A DNA stretch of 36,556 bases, from IMG/VR virus record IMGVR_UViG_3300040751_002094, positions 1 through 36,556 of that record; one strand, 5' to 3'. Under the pieces are notes generated by a model that saw only the letters and a program-made list of their open reading frames with translations, was not told the DNA's origin and did not search any database. Within the stretch, counting starts at the first letter, position 1. Every line of letters starts with the position of its first letter. The stretch comes from a virus. A program made the translations under genes and the position numbers. Below, piece after piece: positions 12,665-29,561 of the stretch.

Positions 12665-13093
12665 ATGGCATATAATACAAACGAACTAGAAAAACAAGCC
12701 CTTGAGGCAATCAAGGAGCATGGGCTCATCTTCATTGAGGAGGTAGTGAGCTTTTTGCCATGTTCTAAGCCCACATTCTACGAGCATGGACTTAACGAAC
12801 TTGACTCTATAAAAGAGGCTATAAACTTTAACAAAGTATCTAAGAAGGCGAAACTGCGCAAGAACTGGGAGCAATCAGAGAATGCAACACTAAACATCTC
12901 CTTATATAAACTCTTGGCTAATGAGGAGGAGTTAATGAGGCTATCAGTGCAGAAGATCCACCAGGAGACAAAGCAAGAGACAAAGCACTCCATTGACTTT
13001 AATAAATTAACAGACGAGCAGCTAGATGAATACCTTAGAGTTACAAAAGGAATACTTGAGAGCGGTAAGGGAGAAAGCGAGGAGGAGCTTTGA
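12665..13093 (+). CDS. terS: Terminase small subunit (142 aa)
   Basis: Recognises phage DNA and loads the large subunit for packaging. Assigned by position directly upstream of and overlapping terL, by size, and by an N-terminal helical region resembling an HTH (LEAIKEHGLIFIEEVVSFLPCSKPTFYEHG). A helical middle and an acidic C-terminus (ESGKGESEEEL) follow, as in other TerS proteins. The nearby repeats are a possible binding site. It overlaps terL by 68 bp. Confidence 0.82.
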   Translation: MAYNTNELEKQALEAIKEHGLIFIEEVVSFLPCSKPTFYEHGLNELDSIKEAINFNKVSKKAKLRKNWEQSENATLNISLYKLLANEEELMRLSVQKIHQETKQETKHSIDFNKLTDEQLDEYLRVTKGILESGKGESEEEL

Positions 13094-14456
13094 GCAGTTT
13101 GTCCTGATAACTAAGCCAGATTACAAACTTAACTGGCATCACAAGCTCTTGATGAGCAAGCTCCAAGCATTTGCAGAGGGTAAGATCAAAAAAATGATGG
13201 TTTTTATGCCTCCACAGCATGGCAAGAGTGAGCTGACAAGTAGGAGACTCCCCTCATATATCTTGGGGATCAATCCAAATGCAAAGATAGCAGGATGCTC
13301 CTATGCAGCAGATCTGTCTAAAAGTTTTAACAGGGATGTACAGAGAATAATTGAGGATGATGCTTATAGTGGGATTTTTCCCAATACTAGACTAAACTCC
13401 TCAAATGTAAAGAGCTCAGCAAAAGGGAGCTATCTGAGGAATGCAGATATTTTTGAGGTTGTGGGATATAGTGGCTTTTATAAGTCTGTAGGTGTGGGGG
13501 GATCTCTCACAGGGACTCCAGTGGATATCGGTCTCATTGATGATCCTGTCAAAGATGTAGTGGAGGCTAATAGTGCGACATATAGAGCGAGGGTGTGGGA
13601 CTGGTTTACAGGAGTCTTTTTGACTCGTCTACATAATGACTCACAGATCCTGATCACTCAGACTAGATGGCATGAGGATGATCTCAGTGGGAGGATCTTA
13701 AAAAGCAAGCAAGCTCATGAGTGGGAGATATTAACACTCCCAGGCATATTGGAGACAGATGACAAGCATGAGGATGATCCCAGACAGATTGGAGAGGCTC
13801 TGTGGGCTGATAGACATAGTTTAAAAAAGTTGCTTGATTTTAGGGATGCAAGTCCGAGACTATTCCAAGCAATGTATCAGCAAGATCCTAGGCCTTTCGA
13901 GGGTGGTCTTGTTTATCCTAAATGGAGCAGCTGCAGTCTTCAGGACTATAAGATGGTCAGAATTGAAGAGATCAACGGGCTTGACTTTGGATACTCAACG
14001 AGCCCAGCGGCATTCATAGGAGTAAAGATTGACAAAGATGCAAAACGAATATATCTAAGGCTCAAGATCTATGGCAAGTTTATCAAGCTTAAGCAACTAG
14101 CGGAGCAGATGACAGACAAGTTGGATAGTGCTAGGCAGGAGATAATTGCAGATAGTGCGGACCCTCTGCTCATAGAGCATCTAAAAGGACAGTACAAAAT
14201 GAATGTACACAAAGCTATCAAAGGCAAGGACTCTGTGAGCTTTGGGATCACTCTTATGAATAACTTTGAGCTAGTTATTGTAGAGGAGGGAGGCGAGCCA
14301 TTGAAACGAGAACTAAAAAACTATAGATATAAAGAGGATGCCGATGGTAATCCTTTAGATGAGCCAGTCAAGGAGTATGACCATGCACTTGATGCCGCTC
14401 GTTATGTTGTACTTAAAAAACTAGGGCGAAAGGGCTCAAAATTTACTGTATTCTAA
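13026..14456 (+). CDS. terL: Terminase large subunit (476 aa)
   Basis: Packaging ATPase and nuclease. Walker A PPQHGKSE (from residue 62), Walker B IGLIDDP (168-174) and the coupling-type segment TQTRWHEDD (211-219). The RNase H-like nuclease has GLDFGYS (D320), IADSADP (D376/D379) and YDHALDAARY (D452/D456). Length and motif order are standard. The start at 13026 gives a normal N-terminus although it overlaps terS by 68 bp; no other ATG is available before residue 43. It ends in a TAATG overlap with the next gene. Confidence 0.95.
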   Translation: MNTLELQKEYLRAVREKARRSFEQFVLITKPDYKLNWHHKLLMSKLQAFAEGKIKKMMVFMPPQHGKSELTSRRLPSYILGINPNAKIAGCSYAADLSKSFNRDVQRIIEDDAYSGIFPNTRLNSSNVKSSAKGSYLRNADIFEVVGYSGFYKSVGVGGSLTGTPVDIGLIDDPVKDVVEANSATYRARVWDWFTGVFLTRLHNDSQILITQTRWHEDDLSGRILKSKQAHEWEILTLPGILETDDKHEDDPRQIGEALWADRHSLKKLLDFRDASPRLFQAMYQQDPRPFEGGLVYPKWSSCSLQDYKMVRIEEINGLDFGYSTSPAAFIGVKIDKDAKRIYLRLKIYGKFIKLKQLAEQMTDKLDSARQEIIADSADPLLIEHLKGQYKMNVHKAIKGKDSVSFGITLMNNFELVIVEEGGEPLKRELKNYRYKEDADGNPLDEPVKEYDHALDAARYVVLKKLGRKGSKFTVF

Positions 14457-14686: not shown

Positions 14687-14868
14687 GTAGCTACTACAGA
14701 ATACTAATATACATTTGTTTAGGTAGTACAGCTCTAGATATAACTAGAGAAATTAACTCATATACAGATGCAGGGAAAATGCCTGAGGCAATTGGGATGA
14801 TATTTTTAACTCTTATGTTTGTGATCTCAGCTAAATTGATAAGCAAAGAACTAGACAAGAATGATTAA
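14683..14868 (+). CDS. Small two-TM membrane protein (61 aa)
   Basis: Two hydrophobic stretches, RILIYICLGSTALDI near residue 6 and IGMIFLTLMFVISAKLI near 37, are separated by a polar loop (TREINSYTDAGKMPEA). A charged tail (SKELDKND) follows. Size and topology suit a class II holin, but the gene is next to terminase rather than a lysis enzyme. It overlaps its neighbours by 4 and 8 bases. Confidence 0.6.
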   Translation: MSSYYRILIYICLGSTALDITREINSYTDAGKMPEAIGMIFLTLMFVISAKLISKELDKND

Positions 14869-15562
14869 GATAAAAGTTGGCAAAACTAGGGCGTTTCTGC
14901 CTGATCCTAAGACTATCCTCTTGACTCAATATATAGACTGGCTTGAGTGGGTAGATGAGAATCAACCCAGTTGGTGGAATGACATCTCTGCTGAAGATGA
15001 TGATAAGCCATTCATTGACAAGTTGAACCAAAAGCAGAAGCTGCAACTGTTTGACTTTTGCGCAAAAGAGTTGGCTTTTTGGTCTGACCTAGGACATAAG
15101 GAATGGAGAAAAGCGGAGCTTTCGGAGTTGTTTGGGACTTGGGCATGGTTTAGGTCTCACTTTAACTATGAGCATGTTGAAGACTGGAACTGCTTGGATG
15201 TAGATGGAAAGATCTACTATCTCCCAGAAAAGTTCATGAGCGAGTCAACGCTTGAAGATTATGCCGAAGCGAACGCATACGAGGAGAGTCTTGCTGATGC
15301 TTTGGATGGTCAATATCTTGCTCTTTTTGGAATTGCTGCAATAATTTTGCGGTTGAAGGACAAAGAGACAGGCCGATTGGAGTCATACGATGACTATGAT
15401 GTTGACTGGAGAACTGCACATTTTAAGGACCATCTAACAGCAGTACAAGCGCATCAGATAGCTTTTTTTTTGCAGAGACTAAGCAACACATTGCAGAAAG
15501 ATACACAAATCTATTCGATGGCTCAGACGCTCGCGCAGTTAAAGCAGGATACGAGGAGCTAG
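14861..15562 (+). CDS. Frame-0 product of a frameshifted ORF (233 aa), tail-chaperone-like candidate
   Basis: Starts MIKIKVGKTRAFLPDP and is rich in Trp and acidic residues (WLEWVDENQPSWWNDI, LFGTWAWFRSHF). After codon 203 the frame enters a nine-T run. The remaining 30 residues (QRLSNTLQKDTQIY...) look like the shadow of the -1 frame, which stays open for another 84 codons. A short product plus a -1 extended product is the layout of tail assembly chaperones (lambda G/GT). Here, however, the gene lies upstream of MazG and the tail completion genes rather than beside the tape measure. Family not recognised. Confidence 0.7.
   Translation: MIKIKVGKTRAFLPDPKTILLTQYIDWLEWVDENQPSWWNDISAEDDDKPFIDKLNQKQKLQLFDFCAKELAFWSDLGHKEWRKAELSELFGTWAWFRSHFNYEHVEDWNCLDVDGKIYYLPEKFMSESTLEDYAEANAYEESLADALDGQYLALFGIAAIILRLKDKETGRLESYDDYDVDWRTAHFKDHLTAVQAHQIAFFLQRLSNTLQKDTQIYSMAQTLAQLKQDTRS
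15463..15472 (+). other. Slippery site T TTT TTT for -1 frameshifting
   Basis: The run T15463-T15471 is read in frame 0 as GCT TTT TTT TTG. A slip of -1 on T-TTT-TTT (15463-15469) re-pairs both tRNAs perfectly and continues as TTT GCA GAG. An overlapping T-TTT-TTG heptamer (15466-15472) is also usable. A one-base homopolymer error in the assembly would give the same continuous frame and must be excluded. Confidence 0.65.
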
Positions 15563-15723
15563 TTGCACCTTATGGATGGCTTAACACTTATATCATGTTA
15601 GCCAAGGGGGATGTGATGAAGTTGCCAGAAGTGGAAAAGCTGCCGTTGTACATGGCTCTTAATTTCTTGAGTCAGCAAAATGCAGAGGCAAAATACTTGA
15701 CTAATTTACAAAATACTAAATAA
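15469..15723 (+). CDS. -1 frame extension (84 aa) giving a 287-aa fusion with the upstream ORF
   Basis: In the -1 frame the sequence continues FAETKQHIAERYTNLFDG, then LVAPYGWLNTYIMLAKGD, then LPLYMALNFLSQQNAEAKY, to TAA at 15721-15723. It has no start codon of its own near its 5' end and fills exactly the space before the MazG gene, overlapping its ATG as TAATG. Its composition is that of a real folded helical domain. The fusion would be 203 + 84 = 287 residues. Confidence 0.7.
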   Translation, partial: FAETKQHIAERYTNLFDGSDARAVKAGYEELVAPYGWLNTYIMLAKGDVMKLPEVEKLPLYMALNFLSQQNAEAKYLTNLQNTK

Positions 15724-16049
15724 TGACATTTGACGAGTTGCAGAGTAAGATCAAAGGATGGGGACTATCTAAAGGAATCACAACCAAGAAAAAACAGAAG
15801 GGCAAGAAGGTCATACAAAAGTATGCTCAGACATTAAAGATTCAGGAGGAGTCTGGTGAGTTGTGTGGTGCGATCTTAAAAGACGATGAGCCAAAGATCA
15901 AGGATGGAATAGGTGACACAATTGTGACTCTCATCCTACTGGCAGAGATACAAGGCTATACTTTAGAGGAGTGCTTGCTGATCGCCTGGAATGAGATCAA
16001 GAGCAGAGATGGTCAGCTAGTTAATGGGACATTTATAAAAAACAACTAA
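15723..16049 (+). CDS. MazG-like NTP pyrophosphohydrolase (108 aa)
   Basis: All-alpha NTP pyrophosphatase fold: the metal-binding helix has QEESGELCGAI (E42, E43, E46) and the second has KDGIGDTIVTLILLAE (D61, D65), followed by the closing helix LEECLLIAWNEIKSR. Phage MazG proteins are thought to hydrolyse non-canonical nucleotides or alter host ppGpp. Its place inside the structural operon is unusual, since phage mazG genes commonly lie in early regions. Coupled upstream by TAATG. Confidence 0.82.
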   Translation: MTFDELQSKIKGWGLSKGITTKKKQKGKKVIQKYAQTLKIQEESGELCGAILKDDEPKIKDGIGDTIVTLILLAEIQGYTLEECLLIAWNEIKSRDGQLVNGTFIKNN

Positions 16050-16050
16050 G

Positions 16051-16143
16051 ATGCTTGCATACGGAATAATAATACACATACTAGCGTTGGTCGGGGCTGC
16101 TTTTCTTTTTGCTTTAGCAACGACTCCAAATAAAAACAAATAA
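16051..16143 (+). CDS. Membrane micropeptide (30 aa)
   Basis: A 30-residue ORF, MLAYGIIIHILALVGAAFLF and a short polar tail, that is a single membrane helix. It fits exactly between MazG (one-base gap) and the next gene (one-base gap). Short but consistent with the packed gene layout. Confidence 0.45.
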   Translation: MLAYGIIIHILALVGAAFLFALATTPNKNK

Positions 16144-16144
16144 G

Positions 16145-21410: not shown

Positions 21411-21540
21411 AAAAGAACTATCTGCAGAACAAAAAGCAACCGCTGCAAGGTTAATAAAAGGAGGACTTGCAATGGCATCAGAGGACTGCATTGTATTTTT
21501 TTGTGAATGGGATAAACAAACTTTTTTGACTTATGGCTAA
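21394..21540 (+). CDS. Small protein overlapping the tape measure start (48 aa)
   Basis: MSKISKKELSAEQKATAARL then GGLAMASEDCIVFFCEWDKQ. It overlaps the gene before by 17 bp and the tape measure gene by 8 bp, so translation is likely coupled. Its place just before the tape measure is where chaperone genes often sit, but it is too short to identify. Confidence 0.55.
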   Translation: MSKISKKELSAEQKATAARLIKGGLAMASEDCIVFFCEWDKQTFLTYG

Positions 21541-24500
21541 GACAGTAGGATTAAAAATTGAGATAGAAGGACTCAGCACCATCACTCAAGAGGTGGTAAA
21601 GCTAGAGCAGGAGCTGAAGGCTTCCAAGACTGCTGCCAAAGATCTTGAGAAGGAGATTGAAGCACTCAACAAGCAGATCTCTGAGTCAGATAATGCGGAA
21701 GAGGTTGAAGCACTCAACAAGCAGCTTGCAGTTGCAGAAAAGGAGTATATCAATTTACGCAATGCGGTTGCAGATACCAACGAGCAGTTAAAAGGAGCAA
21801 GAAAAGAGCAGAGGGATTTTATCAAGCAAGCAAATACAGCGAAGTTCAAAAAGGGCTCATATTTTGATCTCAACGAACAGCTAAAAGCAGCTAGAAAGTC
21901 CTTTAAAAATCTATCAGAGGAGGAGCGAAAAGGGAAGATAGGGCAGGATTTGACGCAACGCATACAAAAACTAGACACTGAGCTGAAAGGTATTGACAAG
22001 TCTATTGGTCAAAATCAGCGCAATGTCGGAAACTACACCAAAGCACTTGACAATCTTGTGCCTGGGTTCAGACGTATATCTAAGGCCGTGACTAATGCCA
22101 ACGGTAAACTCAATATTTTTGGCAAGACGTTGCTCGCTGGGTTCGCTGCATTCCAAGCGGCTAAATTTATTGCAAAAGCTGTCAAGCAGTTGGATGAGTT
22201 CATTGGCAAAATCAATGAGACTACTCAAGCGGTTGCAGGATTTGGCGAGGTATCTGGTGAAGAGTTGGAAAAACTAACAGCCCAGACAACAGCATTGAGT
22301 GAGACCTTTGCTGTAGATAGTGAGCAGATTGCAAAGAGTGCGCGAGCATTAGCCGATCAGCTAGGCATCGGATTCGATGAGGCGTTGACTAAAATCGAGG
22401 GCAAACTTGTCGAGGGTGTTGCTAATAATGAGGAGTTTCTAAGTACTATCGAGCAGTATCCTGAAGCTTTTGAGGATGCCAGTGGAGCGGTCACTGATTT
22501 CAGCGAGCGCAATGCTGACCTATTAGCTAGAAATAAGGAACTTGCAGCGAGTCAAGTAGAAGTAGCAAAACGCTTGCAGGGTGTGACAGATACATTCAAG
22601 AGCATATCTGCAACCGTTCAAGCTGTGCTCTTCAAAGTCTTAGCTGATCTTATTGATATTTTTAGACCAGTGGTGTCTGCATTTCAACGAGCAGGCGAGG
22701 CGGTTGGTCGATTGTTTAAGGCTTTTGCATCATTCCGGAAAGAAGGTGAGGAGGCTGTGACAATTAGCAGCTTAATATCTGGTACATTTGAGAGGCTTGC
22801 AGGCGTTCTCCAGTTTGTAGCTGATGGCATCACGTTTGTAGTTGATGGGATCACTGACTTGATTGAGAACGTCCCCCTATTACAAAAACTATTTGCGTTT
22901 ATATTCGACCAAGTTGCTAAGGTTCGGCAAGTCTTCACAGATCTGCCTTTTATATTTGCTGGAGTAGTTGCAGCACTCAAGCAGCTAGGGACTAACTTTG
23001 TGAACTTCTTTGAGGCGACGTTTATTGATGCCCAGATATTTGCTGCAAAGGTCAAAGGGATATTCTCAAGCGCAGCAAAAGCACAGATTGAAGAACTAAG
23101 GAAAAGGAGAAAGGAGTTGATTGCTGATGGTGCTAGTGTTGGAGATGCTTATGGTAAAGCATTTGAAGAGGCAAGGAGAAAAGCAGCCGACCAAGCAGAG
23201 GCGGCACGATTAGAGCAGGAGAAAGTTGCAGACTTGAAAGCTTTACAGGCTAAAACTAAAAGAGACGCAGAGGCAGCAAAGAAGCAAAGAGATGCAGCCA
23301 TCAAAGCCGAACAGGAGTTGCAAAAGGCTCGCGACAAATTTGCACAGGAGGAACTTGCTAAGGAAAAACAAAGAGCTGCACTACTGGCAGATCTATCTGC
23401 TAAGTTGTTAGACCAACGCATCAAGGCCATCGAGGATGAGAGCAAGCGCAGAGAGGAGGAGATCAAAGTAAGTTTTGACAGACAAGTGCAAGCGGTTGAA
23501 GATGGCAACAAGAAACTCCTTGAGGAGCAAGCAAAGAGAGAGGATGAGCTCATCAAGATATTTGGCAAAAAGAGCAAGGAGGTGCTACAGTCAAGACAAG
23601 ACTTTCAAAAGGATTTTATCAAGATCGAGCAACAGACGTCTAACATTATTCTAAACTTAAGAGCTGAAGAGGCTAAAGAGTTGGAAGCGTTGCAGGATGA
23701 GATCAATGCTAAGGAGATCGAGAAAGCCAAGAAAGCAGCTGCTGACTTGCGAGCATTCAGAGATCAAGCACTCAACGAAGAGCTTGCATTTATAGATCTA
23801 CAAGCTAGACAAAGAGAGCTAAAAGCGCAGGAGTCGCTTAATCGCCTACTTATTCAGGAGGAGGATGCAGCAGCAAGACAAGAAGCGATCAGAGTAGAAG
23901 CAGAGCGCAAGATTATAGACCAGATCCTTGATGTTAGGAATAAGTTGCAAGCCTTAGACGATCAGCAGGCTTTTCTCGAATCAGAGGCAGCAGCAGGCGT
24001 CAAGATTAAGCAAGAGGAGTATGATGCTATCCTGCAAGCTAGGCAACAGTTAAATACTCAGCTTAGTGATTTAGAAAGACAGCAGACAGAAAATGCAAGG
24101 GTTGAAGGAGATGAAAGGCTTAAGCGAATTATTGCAGACATCTCGAAAGTTGCTGACATTGTAGGCAAAGGATTGACAGCGGTTGACAATGTCCTTGATG
24201 CTTTAGACTCAAGACAAGAGGAGCAGCTCACAAAGTCCTTAGAGCGATCACAAGAGAGACAGGCACAACTTGAAGCAGAGGCCGAAAATGCAACAGGACT
24301 CCGCAAAAAGTTTTTAGAACAGCAAGCAGCCAATGAGATCAACACACAACAGCAACTAGAAAAGCAGCAGGAGAATCTTGCAGAGCGAGCAGCTAAGAGA
24401 GACCAACGCATTGCAGTTACTGAGAGCATCATCCAAGGTCTTTTGGCTATCACTAGAGCAGCGGCAGCGCCTCCGGGCTTCCCTCTAAACTTGCCAAGTG

Positions 24501-24925
24501 TTGCAGTAGTCACAGCATTGAGCGCGGCAAATACGGCAGCGATAGCATCTAAGAAGTTCCAAGATGGTGGTATCATTCAAGGACCATCACACTCGCAGGG
24601 CGGTGTCAAGTTTGCTGTAGGTGGCCAAGTAGGATTTGAGGCTGAAGGTGGTGAGTTTATTGTCAACAAACGTGCAACGGCTAAAAACTTGCCTTTATTA
24701 GCTCGCATCAACTCCCAGAAGTTTGCAAGTGGTGGGTTTATTGGTGGTGTGTCTCCAGTTCCAAGCGTGACAAACATCAACACAGTACAAGCTGACTCAG
24801 TGCAAGCCCTTGCAGGGACTTTGGCAGGCGTCATCAACTCACAGAAAGTAATACTGGTGACAGATGACTTGGATGAAGATAGAGACAATCAAGAGCGAAT
24901 CGAGAAACGTACAATTATTAGATAA
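21533..24925 (+). CDS. Tail tape measure protein (1130 aa)
   Basis: Sets tail length and is ejected into the host. Residues 1-170 are coiled coil (EVVKLEQELKASKTAAKDLE onward). A hydrophobic segment follows near 195-215 (LAGFAAFQAAKFIAKAV), then a helical domain with more hydrophobic patches to about 510. Next is a long Lys/Glu/Ala-rich coiled coil (about 520-950) and a Gly-rich C-terminus with GPSHSQGGVKFAVGG and GGEFIVNKRAT, typical of tape measures. At about 0.15 nm per residue the tail would be near 170 nm (inference). Long antisense ORFs opposite it are compositional shadows. Confidence 0.92.
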   Translation: MAKTVGLKIEIEGLSTITQEVVKLEQELKASKTAAKDLEKEIEALNKQISESDNAEEVEALNKQLAVAEKEYINLRNAVADTNEQLKGARKEQRDFIKQANTAKFKKGSYFDLNEQLKAARKSFKNLSEEERKGKIGQDLTQRIQKLDTELKGIDKSIGQNQRNVGNYTKALDNLVPGFRRISKAVTNANGKLNIFGKTLLAGFAAFQAAKFIAKAVKQLDEFIGKINETTQAVAGFGEVSGEELEKLTAQTTALSETFAVDSEQIAKSARALADQLGIGFDEALTKIEGKLVEGVANNEEFLSTIEQYPEAFEDASGAVTDFSERNADLLARNKELAASQVEVAKRLQGVTDTFKSISATVQAVLFKVLADLIDIFRPVVSAFQRAGEAVGRLFKAFASFRKEGEEAVTISSLISGTFERLAGVLQFVADGITFVVDGITDLIENVPLLQKLFAFIFDQVAKVRQVFTDLPFIFAGVVAALKQLGTNFVNFFEATFIDAQIFAAKVKGIFSSAAKAQIEELRKRRKELIADGASVGDAYGKAFEEARRKAADQAEAARLEQEKVADLKALQAKTKRDAEAAKKQRDAAIKAEQELQKARDKFAQEELAKEKQRAALLADLSAKLLDQRIKAIEDESKRREEEIKVSFDRQVQAVEDGNKKLLEEQAKREDELIKIFGKKSKEVLQSRQDFQKDFIKIEQQTSNIILNLRAEEAKELEALQDEINAKEIEKAKKAAADLRAFRDQALNEELAFIDLQARQRELKAQESLNRLLIQEEDAAARQEAIRVEAERKIIDQILDVRNKLQALDDQQAFLESEAAAGVKIKQEEYDAILQARQQLNTQLSDLERQQTENARVEGDERLKRIIADISKVADIVGKGLTAVDNVLDALDSRQEEQLTKSLERSQERQAQLEAEAENATGLRKKFLEQQAANEINTQQQLEKQQENLAERAAKRDQRIAVTESIIQGLLAITRAAAAPPGFPLNLPSVAVVTALSAANTAAIASKKFQDGGIIQGPSHSQGGVKFAVGGQVGFEAEGGEFIVNKRATAKNLPLLARINSQKFASGGFIGGVSPVPSVTNINTVQADSVQALAGTLAGVINSQKVILVTDDLDEDRDNQERIEKRTIIR

Positions 24926-29009: not shown

Positions 29010-29561
29010 ATGGGATCTATTACTAAAGGCTTTGCCGGTCAGGACTGTTCAAAAACTTGTCCCGGTGGTATTCGTCGCTTATGGGTTGCAAATGAGGATG
29101 ACATCACAAGCATCACGTTTGGAGCTAATGGTGAAGTTGACAGTTATGTCATGGCTTCAGGTACTAATTTTTATGAGATCAAGTTGAAGGTCAACACTAA
29201 GCAGCTCACAGAGGATGTGCAGGTGTCTGATGATGGTTGTACTCAGTCAGTAGTACAGACATTTGAGGGGATTGGTGGCTGTTGGGATCAAGATGTGCGC
29301 GACTTATTGCTTGAACTAGGCAAGCAGTCTTGTTGTGGTATCGTTGTTATCCATGAGGAGAACAGTGGTGAAACTGTGACTTGGGGCTACCTTGAAGACT
29401 TATATGCTCGTTTGGGTTCTGGTACTCAGACTGTAACTGGTGCAAACTTGACTGACCCTAACCAGTTCACTTTGCAGATCGTATGTACTACGACTTTAGA
29501 CGGATTGAAGACAACATTTACTCCAGGAGCGGCAGGCGTACCGATTACTCCAGCGCCTTAA
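29010..29561 (+). CDS. Major tail (tube) protein (183 aa)
   Basis: Starts MGSITKGFAGQDCSKTCPGG, followed by IRRLWVANEDDITSITFGAN, a pattern I recall from tail tube proteins of Bacteroidota phages. Size and beta-strand-rich centre (FYEIKLKVNTKQLTEDVQVS) fit a tube subunit. Seven Cys (13, 17, 77, 91, 108, 109, 159) are many for a protein assembled in the cytoplasm. A Pro-rich tail closes it. It is separated from the capsid gene by a hairpin and followed by a strong terminator. Confidence 0.75.
   Translation: MGSITKGFAGQDCSKTCPGGIRRLWVANEDDITSITFGANGEVDSYVMASGTNFYEIKLKVNTKQLTEDVQVSDDGCTQSVVQTFEGIGGCWDQDVRDLLLELGKQSCCGIVVIHEENSGETVTWGYLEDLYARLGSGTQTVTGANLTDPNQFTLQIVCTTTLDGLKTTFTPGAAGVPITPAP

Follow-up and report, generated by a model that had tools for sequence, protein, structure and literature searches.

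In the window analyzed here, a stretch of 36,556 nucleotides that is the entire record of a virus of Bacteroidota bacteria, the gene that follows the terminase large subunit gene (TerL) raises the question of whether one start codon serves two proteins by a programmed −1 frameshift and, if so, what these proteins would do. The initial annotation had proposed such a shift on a run of nine Ts (T9), with products of 233 and 287 aa. Its ORF coordinates, T9 position and product lengths were all reproduced on the sequence, and the features are as follows.

13026..14456, + strand: terminase large subunit (TerL), the conserved upstream neighbor
14861..15562, + strand: frame-0 ORF of 233 aa, the short product (candidate tail-chaperone-like, G-like protein), with the same 30-codon frame-0 tail in homologues
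15427..15723, + strand: open stretch of the −1 frame, with its TAA stop at 15721-15723; homologues are alike
15463..15471, + strand: slippery run T9, read GCT TTT TTT TTG; T9G in phase in related loci (22/22)
15469-15720, + strand: C-terminal extension, 84 codons after the slip; the domain is in frame in unsplit relatives
15472..15562, + strand: dual-coding overlap of frame 0 and the −1 frame, with synonymous change approximately halved in both frames
15723..16049, + strand: MazG-like gene, outside the frameshift system; absent in L003 and L004
16145..16735, + strand: next tail-module gene, a probable tail terminator by inference, without a family match; conserved synteny
21533..24925, + strand: tape measure protein of the same tail module

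Layout of the split gene

The T9 run was found to hold both T_TTT_TTT and T_TTT_TTG in frame-0 phase, and a slip at this position joins 203 aa of frame 0 to the 84 aa of the extension to give 287 aa. Apart from the −1 frame, the 160 bp at 15563-15722 are empty, and the earlier proposal that the −1 ORF fills this gap was correct. The TAATG described at the junction of the −1 ORF and the MazG gene is present (ATG at 15723-15725), but it is not a feature of the system, as two near relatives (L003 and L004) are without MazG and in these the TAATG is formed by the −1 ORF stop and the start of the next tail gene (window 16145). Because it is missing in these two near relatives, MazG was considered to be an insertion. 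Together with a small ORF, likewise absent in L003 and L004, the MazG-like gene occupies 15723-16144, precisely where the frameshifted gene would otherwise meet the next tail gene.

Conservation of the T9 run and constraint on both frames

A search with the frame-0 protein identified three near relatives in other metagenomes, each having T9 and the two ORFs, and a terminase scan yielded 31 loci, many of which had the same split gene downstream, with parts mostly 28-55% identical. The initial annotation had suggested that homologues be aligned, and both frames and the T9 run were found to be kept in every one of the 22 window-type loci. These loci represent 20 distinct proteins, down to ~20-26% identity, and T9G is exact and unchanged in phase in all of them, even in L026 and L030, whose identity is 21-26%. 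The −1 ORF spans ~83-90 codons across the 22 loci, and L030 is the exception to the frame-0 tail of 30 codons past the slip site. Zero substitutions were detected in T9G, while the flanks differ at 20-37% of sites. A or T runs of at least 9 occur three times in the window, compared with 1.4 expected by an order-1 Markov model; the T9 run alone is near chance expectation, and its conservation exceeds chance. The minus strand has a further run, T10 at 1980-1989, immediately ahead of a likely ATG for the ORF 1616-2026 on that strand.

When 16 aligned loci were compared, pS in the overlap was 0.32 in frame 0 and 0.295 in the −1 frame versus 0.57 upstream and 0.70 downstream, and pN/pS was 0.55 (frame 0) and 0.58 (−1 frame) versus 1.15 in the unused frame; these values are descriptive and carry no p-value because the locus pairs are not independent. 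Homopolymers are error-prone and unsplit relatives exist (see below), such that an assembly or sequencing error, or decay of the gene, might be thought to have split an ordinary 287-aa ORF. This explanation is extremely improbable considering that (i) the run and its phase are identical across many independent metagenomes, (ii) comparable runs are found in cultured phages and bacterial genomes, and (iii) purifying selection acts on both frames; sequencing error as the source of the split is ruled out by the conservation of the run. As judged from the sequences, the locus is a real and selected −1 recoding event, and the programmed shift that had been proposed is strongly supported by independent assemblies, two cultured phages, bacterial genomes and dual-frame constraint.

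Split genes in prophages and cultured phages

A genome scan with A2 gave no matches, and prophages came up by a profile search of 395 Bacteroidota genomes, in which relatives were found adjoining TerL and split at CA[T TTT TTT]. Across the junction, this prophage family was aligned by the fused profile (prob 96.2, E 2.3e-9). An in-phase T_TTT_TTT or T_TTT_TTG was present at the junction in 68 of the 71 prophage loci examined, with a run of at least 7; the runs were mostly seven or eight Ts in the same phase, and genome G788 carries the T9 form. L092 and L140 look decayed, and L141 keeps the run without a −1 ORF in the stretch fetched. Of 400 genomes sampled from a single Bacteroidota order, 91 matched the TerL-adjacent split gene, which is frequent for one prophage type (L087-L116 and L121-L160), and it is possible that in these genomes the gene belongs to a domesticated element.

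Among cultured phages, a search with the predicted frame-0 structure led to Nonlabens phage P12024S, for which support at the profile level is weak (prob 29, E 6e-4). This phage has a 175-aa ORF after TerL, a T9 run at 23578-23586 that was read directly in its sequence, and a −1 extension to 231 aa. The corresponding P12024S_38 and P12024S_39 (L119 23136-23830) were deposited as two hypothetical proteins and probably make up a single frameshifted gene. Phage P12024L carries a 99% identical copy, P12024L_40/41, likewise located after TerL and annotated as two hypothetical ORFs. The P12024S/L genes are like the window gene in their place after TerL, predicted frame-0 fold, T9 (P12024S) and −1 extension, but are shorter (175 and 231 aa), of very low sequence identity and annotated as separate ORFs. 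A structural match was also obtained in Flavobacterium phage 6H (L120 10352-10927), where the frames are broken at the expected place: TGT TTT TTC TAT occurs near the gene end, but the −1 frame terminates immediately and the C-terminal part is taken up again further on; based on structure prediction, this gene probably corresponds to a similar fold.

Unsplit relatives

Homologues encoded in a single frame were identified as TCUEAP1_3 of an Elizabethkingia phage, the A5 set (L076-L085), L074 and gp02 of Polaribacter phage Leef_1. When the fused profile A1 was compared with the unsplit A5, the two aligned over 235 columns (prob 96.5, E 8.6e-10), which indicates that the −1 part naturally continues the frame-0 protein. 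Leef_1 gp02 and TCUEAP1_3, both hypothetical proteins, are similar to the window gene in standing at the head of the tail genes, with homology established via the unsplit family L074/A5 for Leef_1 and via the C-terminal part for TCUEAP1, but they differ in having one frame without the slippery run (read directly in TCUEAP1). The initial annotation had held that one-frame homologues without the run would speak against a programmed shift; such homologues do occur among the more distant relatives, while the close ones keep the split. As all close and many distant homologues are split, we interpret the unsplit relatives as gain or loss of the shift and not as its refutation.

Mechanism of the shift

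In the proposed mechanism, two proteins would be made from one start codon: most ribosomes would read the 233-aa product, and on U_UUU_UUU(UUG) a fraction would shift by one base into the −1 frame and continue for 84 residues, giving the 287-aa product. Given that the shift is real, ribosomal slippage, which the initial annotation had assumed, is the probable route, because the related prophages use only T7-T8. The X_XXY_YYZ heptamer in frame-0 phase was found to be conserved in the window-type loci and the related prophages, and U_UUU_UUU is one of the heptamers for which −1 shifting in E. coli exceeds 0.1%, with no stimulators needed (PMC4066793). No conserved stimulatory RNA structure was found downstream among pseudoknot-free folds (z-scores −2.0 to +0.6, weak consensus), and the window gave no matches to Rfam. 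A small 4-bp hairpin was seen repeatedly ~11 nt downstream, but it is disrupted in L008, L023 and L026 and was rejected as a stimulatory stem.

The same two products could also arise by transcriptional slippage, in which RNA polymerase would add a U on T9 and the altered mRNAs would be read normally. The run is exactly nine throughout the window-type loci, a one-base insertion opens the right frame, and the lack of an RNA stimulator among the structures found would fit this route; conserved 9A/9T runs among homologues are a stated hallmark of programmed slippage (PMC1088944). The conserved run of nine in the window clade is thus shared with transcriptional slippage of the Shigella mxiE / Thermus dnaX type, which relies on long T or A runs. 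However, unlike that type, the related prophage genes mostly have seven or eight Ts at the junction, below the usual length needed, every site keeps the X_XXY_YYZ phase required for tandem tRNA slippage, and the run length in the window clade is also constrained by coding in both frames. Transcriptional slippage is therefore considered unlikely, with ribosomal slippage preferred. It is also doubtful that one family uses three modes in separate clades, with transcriptional slippage on T9, ribosomal slippage on T7 and full fusion; if true, control of the ratio would have moved between polymerase and ribosome and then been abandoned.

Position in the tail module

The order of the module is TerL, frameshifted gene, terminator-like gene, gp10-like gene, large tail proteins, tape measure, protease, capsid and portal, and is broadly common to TCUEAP1 and prophage L073; TerL relatives in Bacteroides and other Flavobacterium phages have a different gene order. 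The terminator-like and gp10-like roles, as well as that of the putative major tail protein (29010-29561), are putative and were assigned by position, and none of the three genes gave a family match. The terminator-like gene is ~90-130 residues longer in L013, L018, L021, L022 and L023 (280-317 aa versus 188). The frameshifted gene at 14.9 kb and the tape measure at 21.5 kb are separated by several genes, and the distance that the initial annotation had remarked on is real in the window; in the relative L074, however, the order is unsplit gene, terminator-like, gp10-like and tape measure, with the gene only two genes away.

Putative tail assembly chaperones

A ribosomal −1 slip whose short and long products would most likely serve this phage as tail assembly chaperones, by analogy with G/GT of lambda, is our preferred reading, to which we assign a probability of about 0.72. 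Following that analogy, the tape measure protein would be coated by the short form, and the long form, the rarer of the two, would recruit the major tail protein via its extension, as for gpG/gpGT. The −1 shift of lambda yields G and GT at a ratio of 30:1, and its conservation extends widely across long-tailed phages (PMC5009743), in which frameshifted G/GT chaperones are a widespread precedent (PMC5009743, PMC3711429). The comparison with lambda was already made in the initial annotation and still provides the best functional guess, with the gene opening the tail module after TerL. Shared with lambda G/GT and HK97 gp13/gp14 are the one start, the −1 shift at a heptamer close to the 3′ end, the C-terminal extension and the location in the tail module; differences include a longer N-terminal part (about 200 aa) and a homopolymeric T slip site in the window gene. 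Furthermore, this gene lies after TerL and before the terminator-like and gp10-like genes, whereas lambda G/GT lies between the major tail protein and the tape measure.

Searches for similarity to lambda G, lambda T and HK97 gp13 gave none (hhalign prob 0.1-0.2), searches of PHROG, Pfam and NCBIfam matched neither a chaperone family nor any other, consistent with the original remark that no family was recognized, and the PDB gave no usable match by sequence or by fold. Known tail chaperones share low similarity among themselves (PMC5009743). The predicted structure of the frame-0 product had a pLDDT of 84, and the model of an unsplit relative was weak (pLDDT 68); toward the bottom of the list of structural matches for the latter, tail assembly chaperones were the only phage functions with a name, though at E about 1. 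Because its position differs from that in lambda and no homology to the known chaperones was found, we refer to the system as G/GT-like in its working and not as a homologue.

A real shift might instead serve a protein that is not a tail chaperone. It could, for example, yield two lengths of a structural or connector protein, as with T7 gp10A/10B. Other phages are known to have virion proteins made by frameshifting, a precedent for such a role, which would also be consistent with the gene adjoining the terminase and with the missing link, in homology or fold, to known chaperones. Counter to this, the tail module begins with this gene, only two genes (terminator-like and gp10-like) separate it from the tape measure in L074, and its size and C-terminal extension of about 85 aa fit G/GT. 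A non-chaperone role is thus considered unlikely, and tail assembly chaperones remain the preferred reading.

The family is without a functional name in Pfam, NCBIfam and PHROGs, and annotation of cultured phages has split the gene into two hypothetical genes. With the G/GT-like pair, the tail chaperone so far missing from a large set of phages and prophages of Bacteroidota would be accounted for, at an unexpected genomic position. Furthermore, relatives that have T9, T7 or no shift allow a direct test of whether the short and long products are needed in a fixed ratio.
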